Part shown: in pieces, positions 10,987 to 61,649 of the stretch | How the letters are laid out: every line of letters starts with the position of its first letter | Numbering within the stretch: position 1 is the stretch's first letter | From: Aquisalimonas sp. 2447 | Lineage (GTDB): Bacteria; Pseudomonadota; Gammaproteobacteria; Nitrococcales; Aquisalimonadaceae | DNA length: 64,000 bases | NCBI RefSeq assembly: GCF_012044895.1 | Contig: NZ_CP050695.1 | Span: forward strand, 1-64,000 | Direction: 5' to 3' | Position numbers and translations under genes: made by a program | Notes under the pieces: generated by a model | Told to the model about the DNA's origin: nothing | What the model saw: the letters and a program-made list of their open reading frames with translations, nothing else | The model's database searches: none

Positions 10987-11174
10987 CTAGTGTCCTGTAA
11001 CTCAAATTCGTTGCATTTTGAGCGCCTGTGCGGCGCCAGGGCCTGTCCTCTGGGCGGCTGAGCCGGCGTTATCGGTCCTCGCCGTAGTGACGGCTACGCC
11101 TTCGGACCGATGGCCTTGTCTCAGCCGCCCAGAGGACAGGCAAAATACAACGAACTTGGGTTACAGGACACTAG
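10987..11174. mobile_element. MITE-like foldback element 1, CTAG-bounded
   Basis: Both ends are CTAGTGTCCTGTAAC (10987-11001) and its exact complement (11160-11174). The complementarity continues inward with a few mismatches, including CCTGTCCTCTGGGCGGCTGA in one arm paired to the other arm, and an unpaired ~20-base insertion in the left arm. Nearly the whole 188 bp can fold on itself. It has no coding capacity. Length, terminal inverted repeats and CTAG at each end suggest a miniature transposable element; I cannot assign a family. Confidence 0.65.
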
Positions 11175-11440
11175 GGAAACGCTGAACAATTCCCGCGTGC
11201 CTCTGCGCGTCATGGCGGCGCTCTGGCAAGGCGGCGTTCGCAGTGAATGGCCGCAACCCTTTACAAGAACGCCAACGCAGTCCGGAGCGCCCCCATGACG
11301 CGCCCTGCGGCCGATCAGCGCGCCCACAGCCGGCGTTGCGCTGCTTGACTGTACCGGCAGTACAGCGCTGCGCAGCGCGCCTTGTCTGTGGGTGCGCTGA
11401 TCGGCCAGAGGCGCGCGCGAATTGTTCAGCGTTTCCCTAG
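11171..11440. mobile_element. MITE-like element 2 or insertion-sequence remnant, CTAG-bounded
   Basis: Perfect 22-bp terminal inverted repeats (11171-11192 and 11419-11440) begin with CTAGGGAAACGC. An inner palindrome pairs GGCCGATCAGCGC with its complement near 11390-11405. The 270-bp element encodes no transposase. It shares its left CTAG with the right CTAG of element 1, so the order is CTAG-element-CTAG-element-CTAG, as expected if each insertion duplicated a CTAG target (inference). Confidence 0.65.
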
Positions 11441-31213: not shown

Positions 31214-31320
31214 GGGTGCGTTCCTGTTCGCTACTGGCTGTCGATGATGGTTGCCAACGGTACCACTATGGCGGGGTGCGGAGAACTGGGTCACGGTTGC
31301 TCGTGTGCCGTGGGTCGGGG

Positions 31321-31431
31321 CGCCGGAGTCGGGTACATCGGTCACGGACACGCCGTGAATACATCCATGTAGGCTCGACTGCGGCCGTCCTGGCCGCAGA
31401 CGGTCCGTGACCGATGCACCCGACTCCGGCG
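31321..31431 (-). repeat. Covariant foldback element, family 1, copy A
   Basis: Two 29-base outer arms (31321-31349 and 31403-31431) pair with one mismatch. Between them is the family core: ACGCCGTGAATACATCCATG and flanking bases, ending AGGCTCG, then an inner hairpin of 8-bp arms CTGCGGCC. TACATCCATGTA is at 31360-31371; on the minus strand it reads TACATGGATGTA. The minus strand is the one that shows GGA in both hairpin loops, and it is the sense strand of the downstream ubiE transcript. Copies B, C and D have the same core and unrelated arms. Confidence 0.85.
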
Positions 31432-31449
31432 CCGCGGCCTGTGAGAGCG

Positions 31450-31539
31450 TAGGGTGGACCTTCAGGTCCACCATGACGGCTTCGATGGACCGCCTTGGCT
31501 TGCGGGTGGCAAGGCGGTGGACCTGAAGGTCCACCCTAC
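31450..31539. repeat. REPIN: two GTAG-type REP units in inverted orientation
   Basis: GTAGGGTGGACC at the head of the left unit (31450-31473) and its inverted copy (31516-31539) enclose 42 bp. Each unit is itself a hairpin, GGTGGACCTtcAGGTCCACC style, preceded by GTAG. The pattern matches the GTRG-headed REP elements mobilised by REP-associated tyrosine transposases (established class); no such transposase gene is in the window. Confidence 0.85.
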
Positions 31540-31571
31540 GTCTATGTAGGACAACATGGGAGCGCCTCAGC

Positions 31572-32088: not shown

Positions 32089-32180
32089 GTAGGGCGGACC
32101 TTCAGGTCCGCCATTGCGGGCTCCGACGAGCCGCCTTGGCCGGCATGTTGGGGGAAGGTGGACCTGAAGGTCCACCCTAC
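32089..32180. repeat. REPIN overlapping the 3' end of hslU
   Basis: A GTAGGGCGGACC unit (32089-32112) and an inverted GTAGGGTGGACC unit (32157-32180) with a 44-bp spacer. The TAG of the inverted unit's GTAGGG is the stop codon of hslU. Confidence 0.85.
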
Positions 32181-38383: not shown

Positions 38384-38497
38384 GGCCGCTGACCGGGTAC
38401 TCCGGTCCCGGACACGCTGTGAATACATCCCTGTACGCTCGGCACTGGCCTTCCATGGCCAGTGACGGTCCGGGACCGGAGTACCCGGTCAGCGGCC
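38384..38497 (-). repeat. Covariant foldback element, family 1, copy B
   Basis: Outer arms 38384-38413 and 38468-38497 are perfect 30-base complements. The core reads GACACGCTGTGAATACATCC and CTGTACGCTCG, then an inner hairpin with 8-bp arms CACTGGCC. TACATCCCTGTA is at 38424-38435; the minus strand reads TACAGGGATGTA, preceded by G, which matches the CsrA consensus RUACARGGAUGU at every position. This strand is the sense strand of the lptM-lysA-dapF leader. The arms are unrelated to those of copies A, C and D. Confidence 0.88.
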
Positions 38498-40882: not shown

Positions 40883-40980
40883 ACCCGGGTTTCCGGTGAC
40901 GGACCGTCTCCAGCCATGGACGGCTGGAGACGAGCGTACAGGGATGTATCCACAGCGTGTCCGTCACCGGAAACGCGGGT
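40883..40980 (+). repeat. Covariant foldback element, family 1, copy C
   Basis: Outer arms 40883-40904 and 40959-40980 pair with one mismatch (21 of 22). The core is on the complementary strand relative to copies A and B. The plus strand shows an inner hairpin TCTCCAGCC/GGCTGGAGA with loop ATGGAC, then TACAGGGATGTA at 40937-40948, preceded by G, matching RUACARGGAUGU fully. The element lies 110 bp before algZ, so the plus strand is the sense strand of its leader. Confidence 0.85.
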
Positions 40981-58246: not shown

Positions 58247-59242
58247 CTACATCCGGAAAGCGACGGCGGCCTGGTTGTAGCCGACGCCGGAACCGATCAT
58301 GACCACCAGGTCTCCACTCTTGATGCGCCCTTCGTCCACGCTCCTGGACAGCGCCATGGGTATGCAGGCGGAGCCGGTGTAGCCCCACTTGTCCATGATC
58401 TTGGGCGCCTTTTCCTGGGGCAGCCCGATGTTGTCGGCGGCAAGTTCCACGGTATGGCGGTTCACCTGGGTGAAAATCACCTGGTCCACGTCAGCGACGG
58501 TGAAGCCGTTCTGCTCGGACAGGCGCTTGAACAGCAGGGGCCAGCCTTCGTCGTTGATCTCCGGCGGGTAGCGCTTGACCATGCGCACGTTGGTGCGACC
58601 TGCGCGTACCGATTCCTCGGTGGCGGGTTCGGCGGTGCCGCCGGAGTAGATGCCCCAGCAGTCGGAGTATTCGCCATTGGCCAGGAAGGAGGAGCCGATG
58701 AAGCCGGGCTCCTCGGAGGGCTCCACCACGGCTGCCCCGGCGCCGTCACCGTAGAAGAACACGGTGGGGTCGGTGGGGTCGGCGAGCTTGCGCATCATGT
58801 ACACGCCCACTACCAGGATGGTGCGGAAGTGGTTGTTGGTGGCCAGCAGGCCGGCGGCGTTGGCCAGCGCCGTGGGGAAGGAGGCGCAGGCGCAGGCGAC
58901 GTCGAAGGTGCCGGCCTGTTTTGCGCCCAGCTTCTGCTGCAGGACCACGGAGGTGGACGGAGTAATGTAGTCCGGCGAGTCGGTGCCCAGAATGATGAGG
59001 TCCACGTCCTCGGGCTTGCGGCCGGCCTTTTCCAGCGCCTGTTTCGCGGCCGGCAGGGCGAGATCGGAGGAGGCCCAGTCGTCGGGGGCGTACCAGCGCT
59101 GCTCGATACCGGTGCCGGCGTGGAGTTTACCCACCACTTCGGGCTTGCCAAGTTTCGTGAAGCGCTCGTTGAGCTCGTCGTTGGTGATGCAGCGTTCGGG
59201 CAGGTAGTGCGCCGTAGAGACGATCTTGGCGTTACGATTCAT
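58247..59242 (-). CDS. FabH-like 3-oxoacyl-ACP synthase III with an altered active site
   Basis: KAS III-like protein, 331 residues, normal length, thiolase fold. The active-site Cys is kept in FDVACACASFP. However, the catalytic His of FabH (in PHQAN) aligns with Thr in IFTQVNRHT, and the Asn (in GNTS) aligns with Tyr in WGYTGSA. It therefore may not decarboxylate malonyl-ACP like a true FabH; a plain acyl transfer or another condensation is possible. It stands alone before a long gene-free repeat stretch, and its ATG 59242 has only a weak ribosome site. Confidence 0.75.
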   Translation of the reverse strand: MNRNAKIVSTAHYLPERCITNDELNERFTKLGKPEVVGKLHAGTGIEQRWYAPDDWASSDLALPAAKQALEKAGRKPEDVDLIILGTDSPDYITPSTSVVLQQKLGAKQAGTFDVACACASFPTALANAAGLLATNNHFRTILVVGVYMMRKLADPTDPTVFFYGDGAGAAVVEPSEEPGFIGSSFLANGEYSDCWGIYSGGTAEPATEESVRAGRTNVRMVKRYPPEINDEGWPLLFKRLSEQNGFTVADVDQVIFTQVNRHTVELAADNIGLPQEKAPKIMDKWGYTGSACIPMALSRSVDEGRIKSGDLVVMIGSGVGYNQAAVAFRM

Positions 59243-59338
59243 GGGTGATGGACCTCTGAATTAAAACATGACTCGGTAGTCACACAAGTGTTGCAGAGTA
59301 CCTGAAAGATGCAAACAGTCCAACGGGTGGGGCGGGGT

Positions 59339-59566
59339 GTTCGTTGTCTTGTGGCGGCGGGGATGGTGTCCGCGGCTCCGCACGCTCCGCTTACGGAAGC
59401 TGCGCTTCCTACCCGCCGCTCCGGGTTGGCCTGGCGACAGCACATCCCTGTGCTGACGCCAGGTCGCTTCATCCATGAAGCGACCCCTAACGGGGCCGGA
59501 CACCCTCCGCTCTGGCGCTGCGCAAGTCGCTGCGGACACCATCCCCGCCGCCACAAGACAACGAAC
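59339..59566 (-). repeat. Covariant foldback element, family 2, copy E1
   Basis: Outer arms 59339-59373 and 59532-59566 are perfect 35-base complements. Inner features follow a fixed order: CAGCACATCCCTGTGCTG (59438-59455), TCGCTTCATCCATGAAGCGA (59464-59483), and a CCCCTAACGGGG hairpin. The minus strand shows ACAGGGATGT and ATGGAT in its loops. Copy E2 repeats the same order on the opposite strand with different arms. Confidence 0.85.
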
Positions 59567-59617
59567 GAATTGTTGATGGGTGGAGTTGGCGAATGCCGTG
59601 CCGCTATCAATCGCCGC

Positions 59618-59844
59618 GTTCGGATTTCCGGGGTGGGAAGTGCGGTTGGGGCGACTAGCGGAGCTCCGGCCCGGAGGCCGCCCGGCCCCGAAGGGGTGGC
59701 CGCATGGATGCGGCCACCGGCGCCCAGCACAAGGATGTGCTGTAAGCCGGCCAGGCCGGAGGGACGGAAACTTTCCTTCGTAAGAAGGAAAGTTAGGCGG
59801 AGCTTCGGAGCCACAACCGCACTTCCCACCCCGGAAATCCGAAC
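59618..59844 (+). repeat. Covariant foldback element, family 2, copy E2
   Basis: Outer arms 59618-59648 and 59814-59844 are perfect 31-base complements. On the reverse strand, the inner order is the same as E1: a GGCTCCG region, a variable hairpin, CAGCACATCCTTGTGCTG, a CATCCATG hairpin and CCCCTTCGGGG. On the plus strand the motifs are CAGCACAAGGATGTGCTG (59725-59742) and GCCGCATGGATGCGGC within 59695-59718. The arms and variable hairpin differ completely from E1. Confidence 0.85.
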
Positions 59845-59870
59845 CCCGATCAGGCCCCGGAGCTATCCCC

Positions 59871-61649
59871 CTACTTCTTCTTCGGAATATACAGATCCGT
59901 GATCGTCCCCTCGGCCACTTCCGCGGCGAAGCCCACCGTTTCGCTGAGGGTGGGGTGGGGGTGGATGGTGAGGCCGATGTCGGTGGCGTCGCTGCCCATC
60001 TCGATGGCGTGGACCACCTCGGCGATGAGATCACCGGCGCTGACACCGACGATGGCGCCGCCCACCACCTGGCCGGTGGCCTCGTCGAACAGCAGCTTGG
60101 TCATGCCCTCCTCGCGGCCCATGGCCAGGGCCCGGCCGCTGGCCTGCCAGGGGAACGTGGCCTTCTCCACCTTCACGCCCTGCTCCTTCGCCTGCTCCTC
60201 GGTGAGGCCCACCCAGGCGACTTCCGGATCCGTGTACGCCACCGACGGAATCACCCGGGCGTCGAAGGCGCTCTTCTGGCCGGCGATGACCTCGGCGGCC
60301 ACCTTGCCCTCGTGGGTGGCCTTGTGGGCGAGCATGGGCTGGCCGATGACGTCGCCGATGGCGAAGATGTGAGGTACCTGCGTGCGCATCTGCTCGTCGG
60401 CATGAATGAAACCGCGATCCAGCTCCAGCCCCGCCGCCTCGGCATTGATGAGATCACCGTTGGGTCGCCGGCCCACCGACACCAGCACCCGGTCGAAGGT
60501 GTCCGATTCCGGCGCGTCCTTGCCCTCGAAGGACACCTTGATGCCCTTCTTCTGGGCCTCCATGCCGGTGACCTTCGCGCCGGTGTAGATGTTCTCGTAG
60601 CGGGCGCGGATGCGCTTCTCGAAGGGGCGGAGAATGTCCTTGTCGGCGCCGGCCATGAGCCGGTCCATGAGCTCCACCACCGTCACCTTGGAGCCCAGGG
60701 CCTCGTAGACCGTGGCCATCTCCAGGCCGATGATGCCGCCGCCCACCACCAGCAGCCGCTTGGGGATGTCCGCCAGTTCCAGGGCACCGGTGGAGTCCAT
60801 GACCCGCGGGTCGTCCAGGTCCATCCCCGGCGGCGCCACCGGTCGGGAGCCGGCGGCGACGATGGCGTGCTTGAACTTGATCGTGCGCGCGCCGTCCTTG
60901 CCGTCGACTTTCAGCTCATGGGGGCCCGCAAACTCTGCCTTGCCCGTGACCGTTTCCACCTTGCGCTGCTTGGCCATGCTGGCCAGCCCGCCGGTGAGCT
61001 TCTTCACCACGCTGGACTTCCAGTCCCGCAGCTTGTCCAGCTCGATCTTCGGCTTGCCGAAGACCACGCCGTGGTCCTTGAACTGCTCGGCGGTGTCGAG
61101 AATGTGACCCACGTGGAGCAGCGCCTTGGAGGGAATGCAGCCCACGTTCAGGCAGACCCCACCCAGCGTCTCGTAGCGCTCCACGAGAATCACCTTGAGC
61201 CCCAGGTCGGCGGCCCGGAAGGCGGCGGTATAGCCACCAGGGCCGGCGCCGATGACGACGACATCGCAATCGGCATCGGCGGGGGCGTTGGAGGGTGTGG
61301 CGGTCGGAGCGGGCTTCGGGGCCTCCGGCGCTGCCGCCGGGGCCGGCTTCTCGGGCGCCTTTTCCGGCTCCGTGGGCTTGTCCGCGGGCGCCTGGCTTGC
61401 GCCCCCGCCCTCGGTGGCCTCCAGTTCCAGGATGACGTCGCCTTCCTTCACCTGGTCGCCGACCTTGATCTTCACCGAGGTCACCGTGCCGCCGGTGGTG
61501 GCGGGCACCTCCATGGTGGCCTTGTCGGACTCCAGGGTGATGAGCGACTGCTCCGGCTCCACCGTGTCGCCGTCGCTCACCAGGACTTCGATGACATCCA
61601 CGGCGTTGAAATCGCCGATGTCCGGAACCGTGATCGTTGTTGTCGCCAT
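59871..61649 (-). CDS. lpdA: Dihydrolipoyl dehydrogenase with N-terminal lipoyl domain (PDH E3)
   Basis: E3 of the pyruvate dehydrogenase complex, reoxidising dihydrolipoamide with NAD. The 592 residues consist of a lipoyl domain (about 1-80; lipoyl-Lys in ESDKATMEVPA), a Pro/Ala linker (about 85-120) and the flavoenzyme proper (about 125-592). The FAD motif GAGPGGYTAAFRAADLG, redox disulphide GGVCLNVGCIPSK and catalytic HPHPTLSE are present. A fused lipoyl domain on E3 is a known variant in some bacteria. It is last of aceE-aceF-lpd and separated from aceF by a foldback element. Confidence 0.96.
   Translation of the reverse strand: MATTTITVPDIGDFNAVDVIEVLVSDGDTVEPEQSLITLESDKATMEVPATTGGTVTSVKIKVGDQVKEGDVILELEATEGGGASQAPADKPTEPEKAPEKPAPAAAPEAPKPAPTATPSNAPADADCDVVVIGAGPGGYTAAFRAADLGLKVILVERYETLGGVCLNVGCIPSKALLHVGHILDTAEQFKDHGVVFGKPKIELDKLRDWKSSVVKKLTGGLASMAKQRKVETVTGKAEFAGPHELKVDGKDGARTIKFKHAIVAAGSRPVAPPGMDLDDPRVMDSTGALELADIPKRLLVVGGGIIGLEMATVYEALGSKVTVVELMDRLMAGADKDILRPFEKRIRARYENIYTGAKVTGMEAQKKGIKVSFEGKDAPESDTFDRVLVSVGRRPNGDLINAEAAGLELDRGFIHADEQMRTQVPHIFAIGDVIGQPMLAHKATHEGKVAAEVIAGQKSAFDARVIPSVAYTDPEVAWVGLTEEQAKEQGVKVEKATFPWQASGRALAMGREEGMTKLLFDEATGQVVGGAIVGVSAGDLIAEVVHAIEMGSDATDIGLTIHPHPTLSETVGFAAEVAEGTITDLYIPKKK

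Follow-up and report, generated by a model that had tools for sequence, protein, structure and literature searches.

Dispersed foldback elements of the genus Aquisalimonas with paired GGA hairpin loops resembling CsrA-binding sites

REP and REPIN sequences are short, conserved palindromes with tetranucleotide tags (GTAG/CGTC-type) and RAYT partners. The two families of elements described here share with REP/BIME/REPIN and ERIC their occurrence as dispersed intergenic palindromes; family 2, our main subject, differs from REP/REPIN in that its arms are mostly unconserved between copies and its loops carry CANGGATG. For CsrA the recognition motif has been given as a consensus, A/UCANGGANGU/A, and as ACARGGAUGU from SELEX (a string that occurs in PMC3937308); CANGGANG in a hairpin loop is the motif recognised by RsmE/CsrA (CsrA/RsmA). 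CsrB/CsrC and RsmX/Y/Z/V are single-locus sRNAs with a promoter and a terminator. These sponge RNAs each carry several GGA hairpins as CsrA/RsmA sites (PMC4333381), and the families described here are unlike such CsrB/RsmX-type sponges in having two sites per copy and many copies. The same source also presents TwoAYGGAY (RF01731) and Bacillaceae-1 (RF01690), with two CsrA-binding-hairpin matches each, as proposed CsrA-binding RNAs; the passages on them mention no copy-specific long arms, unlike what is found in family 2 (PMC4333381).

A further point of comparison is YPAL/RU-2, a Yersinia palindromic sequence of about 168 bp. Its sequence, printed in Table 1b of PMC2759123, holds the core CGCGCCAAGGATGGCGCG, followed by CGAGCCTACATGGATGTATTTACGGCG, and is in this respect like our family 1. 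YPAL is reported to insert in or beside dyad symmetry and possibly to affect upstream transcripts (PMC2229807). YPAL/RU-2 also resembles both families in being a dispersed, intergenic foldback. The Yersinia copies (L209, L228, L267, L299) share similar arms, in contrast to the mostly copy-specific arms of family 2, whose core is also different and longer. CsrA is mentioned nowhere in three texts that were checked (PMC2759123, PMC2267715, PMC2229807). A literature text search with four 16-letter variants of the family 1 core had the RU-2 paper as its sole match, and in the literature searched no paper was seen that ties these repeats to CsrA. The class is already known in part, as it includes YPAL, and paired GGA hairpins have earlier been proposed as CsrA sites in TwoAYGGAY and Bacillaceae-1 RNAs (PMC4333381); as far as the literature search goes, family 2, the breadth of family 1, the RNA-strand signature of family 1 and the mosaic of arms and cores appear to be new.

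Our locus lies in Aquisalimonas sp. 2447, within the window (the whole 64-kb stretch of DNA that was analysed). Two foldback elements, E1 and E2, share a gap of 628 bp that is bounded on one side by a gene of the beta-ketoacyl-ACP synthase III type (KAS III-like) and on the other by a gene for dihydrolipoyl dehydrogenase. The features of this locus, together with two copies of family 1 from elsewhere in the window, are the following:

31319..31433, minus strand: family 1 copy, core CGAGCCTACATGGATGTATTCACGGCG
38384..38497, GGA strand minus: family 1 copy with the same GGA-hairpin logic
58247..59242, minus strand: neighbour gene, beta-ketoacyl-ACP synthase III-like, whose best matches in NCBIfam fall short of the cut-offs
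59339..59566, GGA/CsrA-type strand minus: E1, whole foldback element, 228 bp
59339..59373: E1 left arm, 35 bp perfect
59395..59409: E1 variable hairpin 1, GGAAGC-TGC-GCTTCC, read from the sequence
59438..59455, minus strand: E1 GGA hairpin, CAGCACAGGGATGTGCTG
59465..59482, minus strand: E1 GGA hairpin, CGCTTCATGGATGAAGCG
59484..59495: E1 CCCCTAACGGGG hairpin, read from the sequence
59532..59566: E1 right arm, 35 bp perfect
59567..59617: spacer separating E1 from E2, 51 bp
59618..59844, GGA/CsrA-type strand plus: E2, whole foldback element, 227 bp
59618..59648: E2 left arm, 31 bp perfect
59686..59696: E2 CCCCGAAGGGG hairpin, the opposite strand reading CCCCTTCGGGG, read from the sequence
59698..59715, plus strand: E2 GGA hairpin, GGCCGCATGGATGCGGCC
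59725..59742, plus strand: E2 GGA hairpin, CAGCACAAGGATGTGCTG
59769..59794: E2 variable hairpin 1, AACTTTCCTTC-GTAA-GAAGGAAAGTT, read from the sequence
59814..59844: E2 right arm, 31 bp perfect
59871..61649, minus strand: neighbour gene for a dihydrolipoyl dehydrogenase whose N-terminal part is of lipoyl type

A sequence-only reading of the window had delimited both elements and claimed perfect arms of 35 and 31 bp, and an arm search returned the same coordinates and lengths; allowing one mismatch extends the arms to 38 bp in E1 and 35 bp in E2. The inner parts of E1 are a GGCTCCG block, a variable hairpin, CAGCACA-TCCN-TGTGCTG, a hairpin whose loop is CATCCATG and whose stem varies, a CCCCT..GGGG hairpin and a CTCCGC..GTCGC block, and E2 holds these parts in the reverse order, just as that reading had it. 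Its view that the arms of E1 and E2 are unrelated stands for this pair, apart from a common outer GTTCG, but does not extend to recent subfamilies elsewhere, which do share arms. In DNA folding compared with shuffles, E1 scores z = -14.4 and E2 z = -15.8, with 0 of 200 shuffles equalling either. The variable hairpin 1 of the E2 type is frequent, not universal, in copies of Aquisalimonas sp. 2447 and its nearest sister. E2 ends 26 bp beyond the stop of the dihydrolipoyl dehydrogenase gene and its GGA strand is antisense to both neighbour genes, while the GGA strand of E1 is sense to both and lies about 97 bp upstream of the KAS III start. In a different genus, a family 1-type element sits beside a dihydrolipoyl dehydrogenase gene, on the same gene side as E2 (L179, G006:C1:428000-432500). 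No Rfam family reached its gathering cut-off in the 64-kb window; at E1/E2 all permissive Rfam hits were far below the cut-offs (RsmV on E2 at 9.2 bits, with one hairpin only), and neither RF01731 (up to E = 5) nor RF01690 was among the permissive-scan hits of 59300-59900.

The second foldback family that had been proposed from this pair does exist, with 17 copies found by a genome-wide search in the own genome. BLAST of E1-E2 against this genome (3,972,634 bp) gave 31 matches, including overlapping and self matches, which correspond to these 17 copies; 15 of them match a covariance model of the two GGA hairpins, and 2 of the 17 are devoid of such hairpins. Besides the 15 matches in the own genome, this model of the two middle hairpins finds 32 in Aquisalimonas lutea CECT 8326 (G001) and 8, 3 and 4 in three further species of the genus; at E <= 0.01, a match is present in 19 of 54 genomes of the order, some of these matches being weak and some of the family 1 type. 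Copies of family 2 consist of a core of about 160 bp within near-perfect arms of 25-44 bp, which mostly differ from copy to copy. A profile of the whole core recovered 66 copies among the fetched loci, 54 of them with callable arms; the remaining 12, several at contig ends and others partial cores, were left out of the arm counts and the loop tally. In the 54 copies, 1799 of 1828 arm pairs are Watson-Crick. Among the 42 hits examined outside the genus, arms of at least 20 bp (up to 55 bp) occur in 26, two or more CANGGANG in 35 and one in 7; in genome G029 the arms are common to most of its copies. The E1/E2 family is a dispersed foldback found in Aquisalimonas, and related elements occur elsewhere in the order. 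In G002, draft contigs break off inside elements at the end of C170 and the start of C466 (L052, L094); taken together, these two ends resemble a single element, cut in half, with arms of about 34 bp, so that family 2 may be undercounted in draft assemblies. Repeats of order relatives at L172-L177 (G020, G034) have two CANGGANG hairpins and GAGCATCGCAG-type flanks, and the caller found no long outer arms there.

The central feature of these elements is the loop of their paired hairpins. The TCCN loops had been taken as a tie between family 2 and family 1, and this tie is borne out on the opposite strand, where both families show identical CANGGANG hairpin loops. Pairs of such loops, as in CsrA/RsmA-binding RNA elements, are present in E1/E2 and in the 54 copies of family 2 with callable arms; the two hairpins of the core lie 27 nt apart. 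The constancy of the loop was tested on two sets, the 54 copies of family 2 found by the whole-core profile, and not by the loop, and hairpin 1 of family 1. In the former, 107 of 108 loops (two per copy) fit CANGGANG; the six specified letters are invariant, with a one-base deletion in L011 as the single misfit. The first N can be G, T, A or C; at the second, 101 loops have T and 6 have C. Hairpins with CANGGANG and a stem of at least 4 bp number six in the window, compared with 0.32 expected (100 dinucleotide shuffles, maximum 2), and all six lie in foldbacks: four in E1/E2, one in 38384-38497 and one in 40889-40974. The stems covary: across 30 cores, both partners have changed in 14 of the 30 base pairs predicted. 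These 30 rows (alignment A1) are diverse copies kept from the 50 of 66 that passed a selection for both loops CATCCNTG 27 apart; since they were chosen by loop, loop invariance in A1 and the hits of its model prove nothing, and its stems alone are informative. A canonical csrA gene is present in the genome; its product matches NCBIfam TIGR00202 at 101 bits, against a cut-off of 70, and looks nearly identical to CsrA of E. coli. A second, diverged CsrA match occurs in a 76 aa frame at G000:C1:477215-477370 (L129). As csrA is nearly universal in the order (found in 50 of 54 genomes), its presence is uninformative as a test; genome G010 has no csrA match, yet two weak element matches.

Family 1 is found across many gammaproteobacteria. 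In the window its layout consists of arms, a variable hairpin and then a core of the type CGAGC.T.CA.GGATG.ATT.ACGGCG; the CGAGCNTNCANGGATGNATTNACGGCG-type core of YPAL is matched letter for letter in 31319-31433 and, apart from single letters, in 38384-38497, whereas E1 and E2 have the two GGA hairpins on a core that is not of this type. Public genomes hold at least 119 stretches with the family 1 pattern. The labels among the matches listed (80) are all gammaproteobacterial or plain 'Proteobacteria', and the genera listed include Xanthomonas, Stenotrophomonas, Pseudomonas, Marinobacter, Rheinheimera and Yersinia. Of the 127 listed matches, 105 have arms with 15 or more matching pairs and 54 have arms with 25 or more; after removal of repeated stretches 118 of the 127 were kept, 103 of these with arms of 15 or more. 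GGA is found in the first-hairpin stretch of 109 of the 118 listed. This hairpin 1 lies outside the family 1 search pattern and therefore provides an independent test of the loop: among the matches listed, 79 hairpins read C73 A77 N G76 G77 A76 N G73 (38 of 117 listed stretches, in which no even-loop stem of 4 bp was present, were left out). The free positions, in these same listed hairpins, are T37 G36 A6 at the first N and T65 C9 G4 A1 at the second, so that the variable loop positions in families 1 and 2 are the two N of the CsrA motif. One of the Yersinia matches overlaps the Rfam sRNA Ysr224, on the strand opposite to the model hit.

Arm mismatches offer a way to distinguish the two nucleic acids. 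In a stem kept as RNA, mismatches are expected to be G-U on the working strand, and an A-C mismatch corresponds to G-U on the other strand. On the GGA strand of the 103 listed family 1 copies, mismatches comprise 149 G-U, 22 A-C and 121 others (G-U versus A-C, binomial p about 2e-24, the copies not being independent of each other). Counted per copy in the 82 listed copies with stronger arms, G-U prevails in 51, A-C in 5, and 26 are equal; in the same 82, purine-purine mismatches on this strand outnumber pyrimidine-pyrimidine ones by 76 to 8, a pattern that RNA pairing on the GGA strand would tolerate. A separate set of 14 family 1-like elements of this order gave 17 G-U and 3 A-C. Because G-U far exceeds A-C on the GGA strand, the data point strongly to action of this strand of family 1 at the RNA level. 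The arms of family 2 show no strand bias (54 copies: 12 G-U, 9 A-C, 5 purine-purine, 3 pyrimidine-pyrimidine), nor do those of 14 order relatives of family 2 (1, 2, 4 and 4, respectively), and in the internal stems of family 2 the 5 G-U and 2 A-C, from loops pre-filtered for A..CC.T-like, are too few to count. For family 2, including E1/E2, we infer by analogy that action at the RNA level is plausible, because its architecture is shared with family 1. Orientation to the neighbour genes in tandem gaps, with crude gene calls, is without clear bias (sense versus antisense 18 vs 9 in family 2 and 16 vs 23 in family 1), which speaks against a role in cis; no promoter or T-run is evident by eye in the flank composition around the 82 listed family 1 copies.

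The neighbouring, oppositely oriented arrangement noticed in the window was confirmed, and in A. lutea, too, copies are found close together in opposite orientation (L099, L100, L101, L105). The cores of E1 and E2 are 61% identical in a gapped alignment and 76% over about 118 nt in BLAST, and they belong to different subfamilies. The nearest relative of E2 is L002 (96%, core alignment), and that of E1 in the same alignment is an A. lutea copy (83%); part 75-192 of E1 is 90% like the own-genome copy L014 in BLAST. In A. lutea the orthologous spacer contains a single element, which lies on the side of E2 and is oriented like it. The inner arm of this element resembles that of E2, with changes on both arms; since its inner TTGGGGC part is also found in other copies, homology with E2 is likely rather than certain. 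E1 would accordingly represent either a separate gain or a loss in A. lutea. Flanks in relatives had been proposed as a means to decide between one insertion and a duplication for the pair; they favour neither, because the nearest relatives differ and the A. lutea gap holds a single element. Together with the core identity, this rules out a single insertion or a tandem duplication as the source of E1/E2. No known mobile element was found of which both could be fragments.

Arms and cores have largely separate histories. Non-covarying arms, which would have spoken against the proposed family, are not what other copies display: of the 13 differences in the closest arm pairs (8 edges at 93% identity or more), 6 have a matching change in the other arm and 7 do not, which is far more matching than independent change would give. 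Over all 16 edges at 70% or more there are 61 paired and 12 single differences, with the reservation that edges under about 80% may connect arms of no relation, in which case differences are paired by construction. Transversions are the more frequent kind among the paired changes (35 of 61; 4 of 6 in the closest pairs), and DNA-level copying from arm to arm therefore fits better than G-U intermediates. Among 23 copy pairs with cores at least 96% identical, arm identity is 0.70 or more in 4 and 0.69 in 2; the ortholog pair L002/L032, one of the 23, has under-scored arms because of a bulge. The cores of L072 and L082 are 98.8% identical and their arms at background (0.47), whereas L064 and L101 agree in 97% of their arm sequence and in 80% of the core; taken together, arm and core identity show a weak positive correlation (Spearman 0.18). 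Cores that are nearly the same thus occur within unrelated arms, and arms that are nearly the same enclose different cores; the cores therefore move between, or convert within, arms specific to a locus and are exchanged between loci, presumably by some moving or exchanging agent. The conserved terminal inverted repeats of a MITE are not seen, mean arm identity being 0.51 with 14 of 1431 pairs at 0.90 or more. No target-site duplication was seen by eye in the flanks, and the species compared gave no clean recent insertion pair.

Comparison of sites between species adds to this picture. The core is inverted relative to its flanks at two of the nine loci compared (L010 vs G001, L012 vs G003), and at a third G001 has one copy in each orientation; the remaining loci, including E2, keep the same orientation. 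Mapping of empty sites between species met intergenic regions that were too diverged in most cases tried. In the closest sister, about 11 bp of the left arm are left at L008, apparently the scar of a deletion. This sister retains a hairpin without core at the L010 site, which reads as a deletion and could also be an empty stem, and G004 is plainly empty at this site; the arms of the filled species are partly alike there and, by eye, much diverged. Ortholog pairs at L002, L004 and L005 show few arm changes, some matched and some not; given the many at L010, arm rates therefore seem to differ between loci.

We propose, and consider about evenly balanced between right and wrong, that family 2 is a dispersed foldback and that transcription of its GGA strand yields an RNA with a long stem, topped by a module with two CsrA-binding sites. 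The GGA strand (minus in E1, plus in E2) would be transcribed, so that the element works as RNA; the two hairpins, 27 nt apart, would each present a CANGGATG loop and so form a two-site module for a CsrA dimer, held at the tip of a double-stranded stem of 30-40 bp. The likeliest effect would be the binding of CsrA in cis on the host transcript, or its titration. Long perfect RNA stems are RNase III substrates, and release of the module from the host transcript by this enzyme is possible.

A selfish, MITE-like DNA foldback, in which a protein recognises the CANGGATG hairpins as single-stranded or cruciform DNA and the resemblance to CsrA sites is incidental, would account for the turnover of intergenic sites between species, for the lack of a clear sense bias towards genes and for the near-perfect arms of family 2 with their missing G-U bias. 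The genome also has four matches to PF01797, the Y1 transposase domain of IS200/IS605 and REP transposases, but no link between Y1 proteins and foldbacks was found. The one-stranded 149:22 bias towards G-U in the arms of the listed family 1 copies points instead to selection on RNA, and in both families the loops vary just where the CsrA motif has its two N; altogether we regard this explanation as unlikely. If the stems were structural mRNA or terminator hairpins that end or stabilise transcripts, with the loops as passengers, one would understand why copies are intergenic, several of them directly after stop codons, and why convergent gaps (16) exceed divergent ones (3) in family 2. A plain stem, however, needs no two hairpins with loops fixed at C, A, GGA and G, and no T-run is evident after the arms of family 1, which makes this role very doubtful.

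The arms could also be inverted copies of target DNA made at insertion, and hence copy-specific, an idea suggested by arms that differ between copies with cores 98-99% identical and by A+T-containing arms of some order-level copies that resemble the local intergenic sequence. Such an inverted target duplication was rejected on comparison of 54 copies, whose arms resemble their own flanks no more than they resemble those of other copies, whichever side or strand is compared, with L102 as the one exception. The arms shared by recent subfamilies, with some differences matched on both sides, and the partly alike, much diverged arms (by eye) of the filled species at the L010 site also count against this origin, which we hold to be quite improbable.

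Extending the CsrA-module reading beyond family 2, we tentatively envisage, as a possibility short of a probable one, a gammaproteobacterial superfamily of dispersed foldback RNAs in which nothing but the CsrA/RsmA hairpin pair is fixed. Their cores would jump or convert between stems that are specific to each locus and are kept palindromic through correction of one arm by the other; interchangeable CsrA-binding modules would in this way be scattered beside genes, where they could rewire or buffer the Csr regulon. If true, anonymous palindromes, including YPAL of yersiniae, would be a dispersed source of sites for a global post-transcriptional regulator, and Csr regulons could grow through the spread of repeats. 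The arms themselves pose the question of how stems of 30-40 bp stay near-perfect while their sequence changes and cores are swapped.

Other foldbacks are present in the window. Two inverted repeats contain no CANGGANG hairpins: one at 10987-11174 has nested arms of 15 and 22 bp, and one at 11171-11440, in which 22-bp arms CTAGGGAAACGCTGAACAATTC enclose 226 bp, resembles the termini of a small insertion element. A short foldback at 40889-40974, with GTTTCCGGTGACGGAC arms and one CANGGANG hairpin, is possibly a diverged family 1 copy. A third foldback type is represented by GGACCTTCAGGTCC palindromes at 31448-31540 and 32096-32173, with 25-bp perfect arms at 31448. At the L078 site, a gap in which A. 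lutea has a family 2 element, relatives have a foldback of the GGACCTTCAGGTCC type, and different foldbacks therefore occupy the same gene end in different species.
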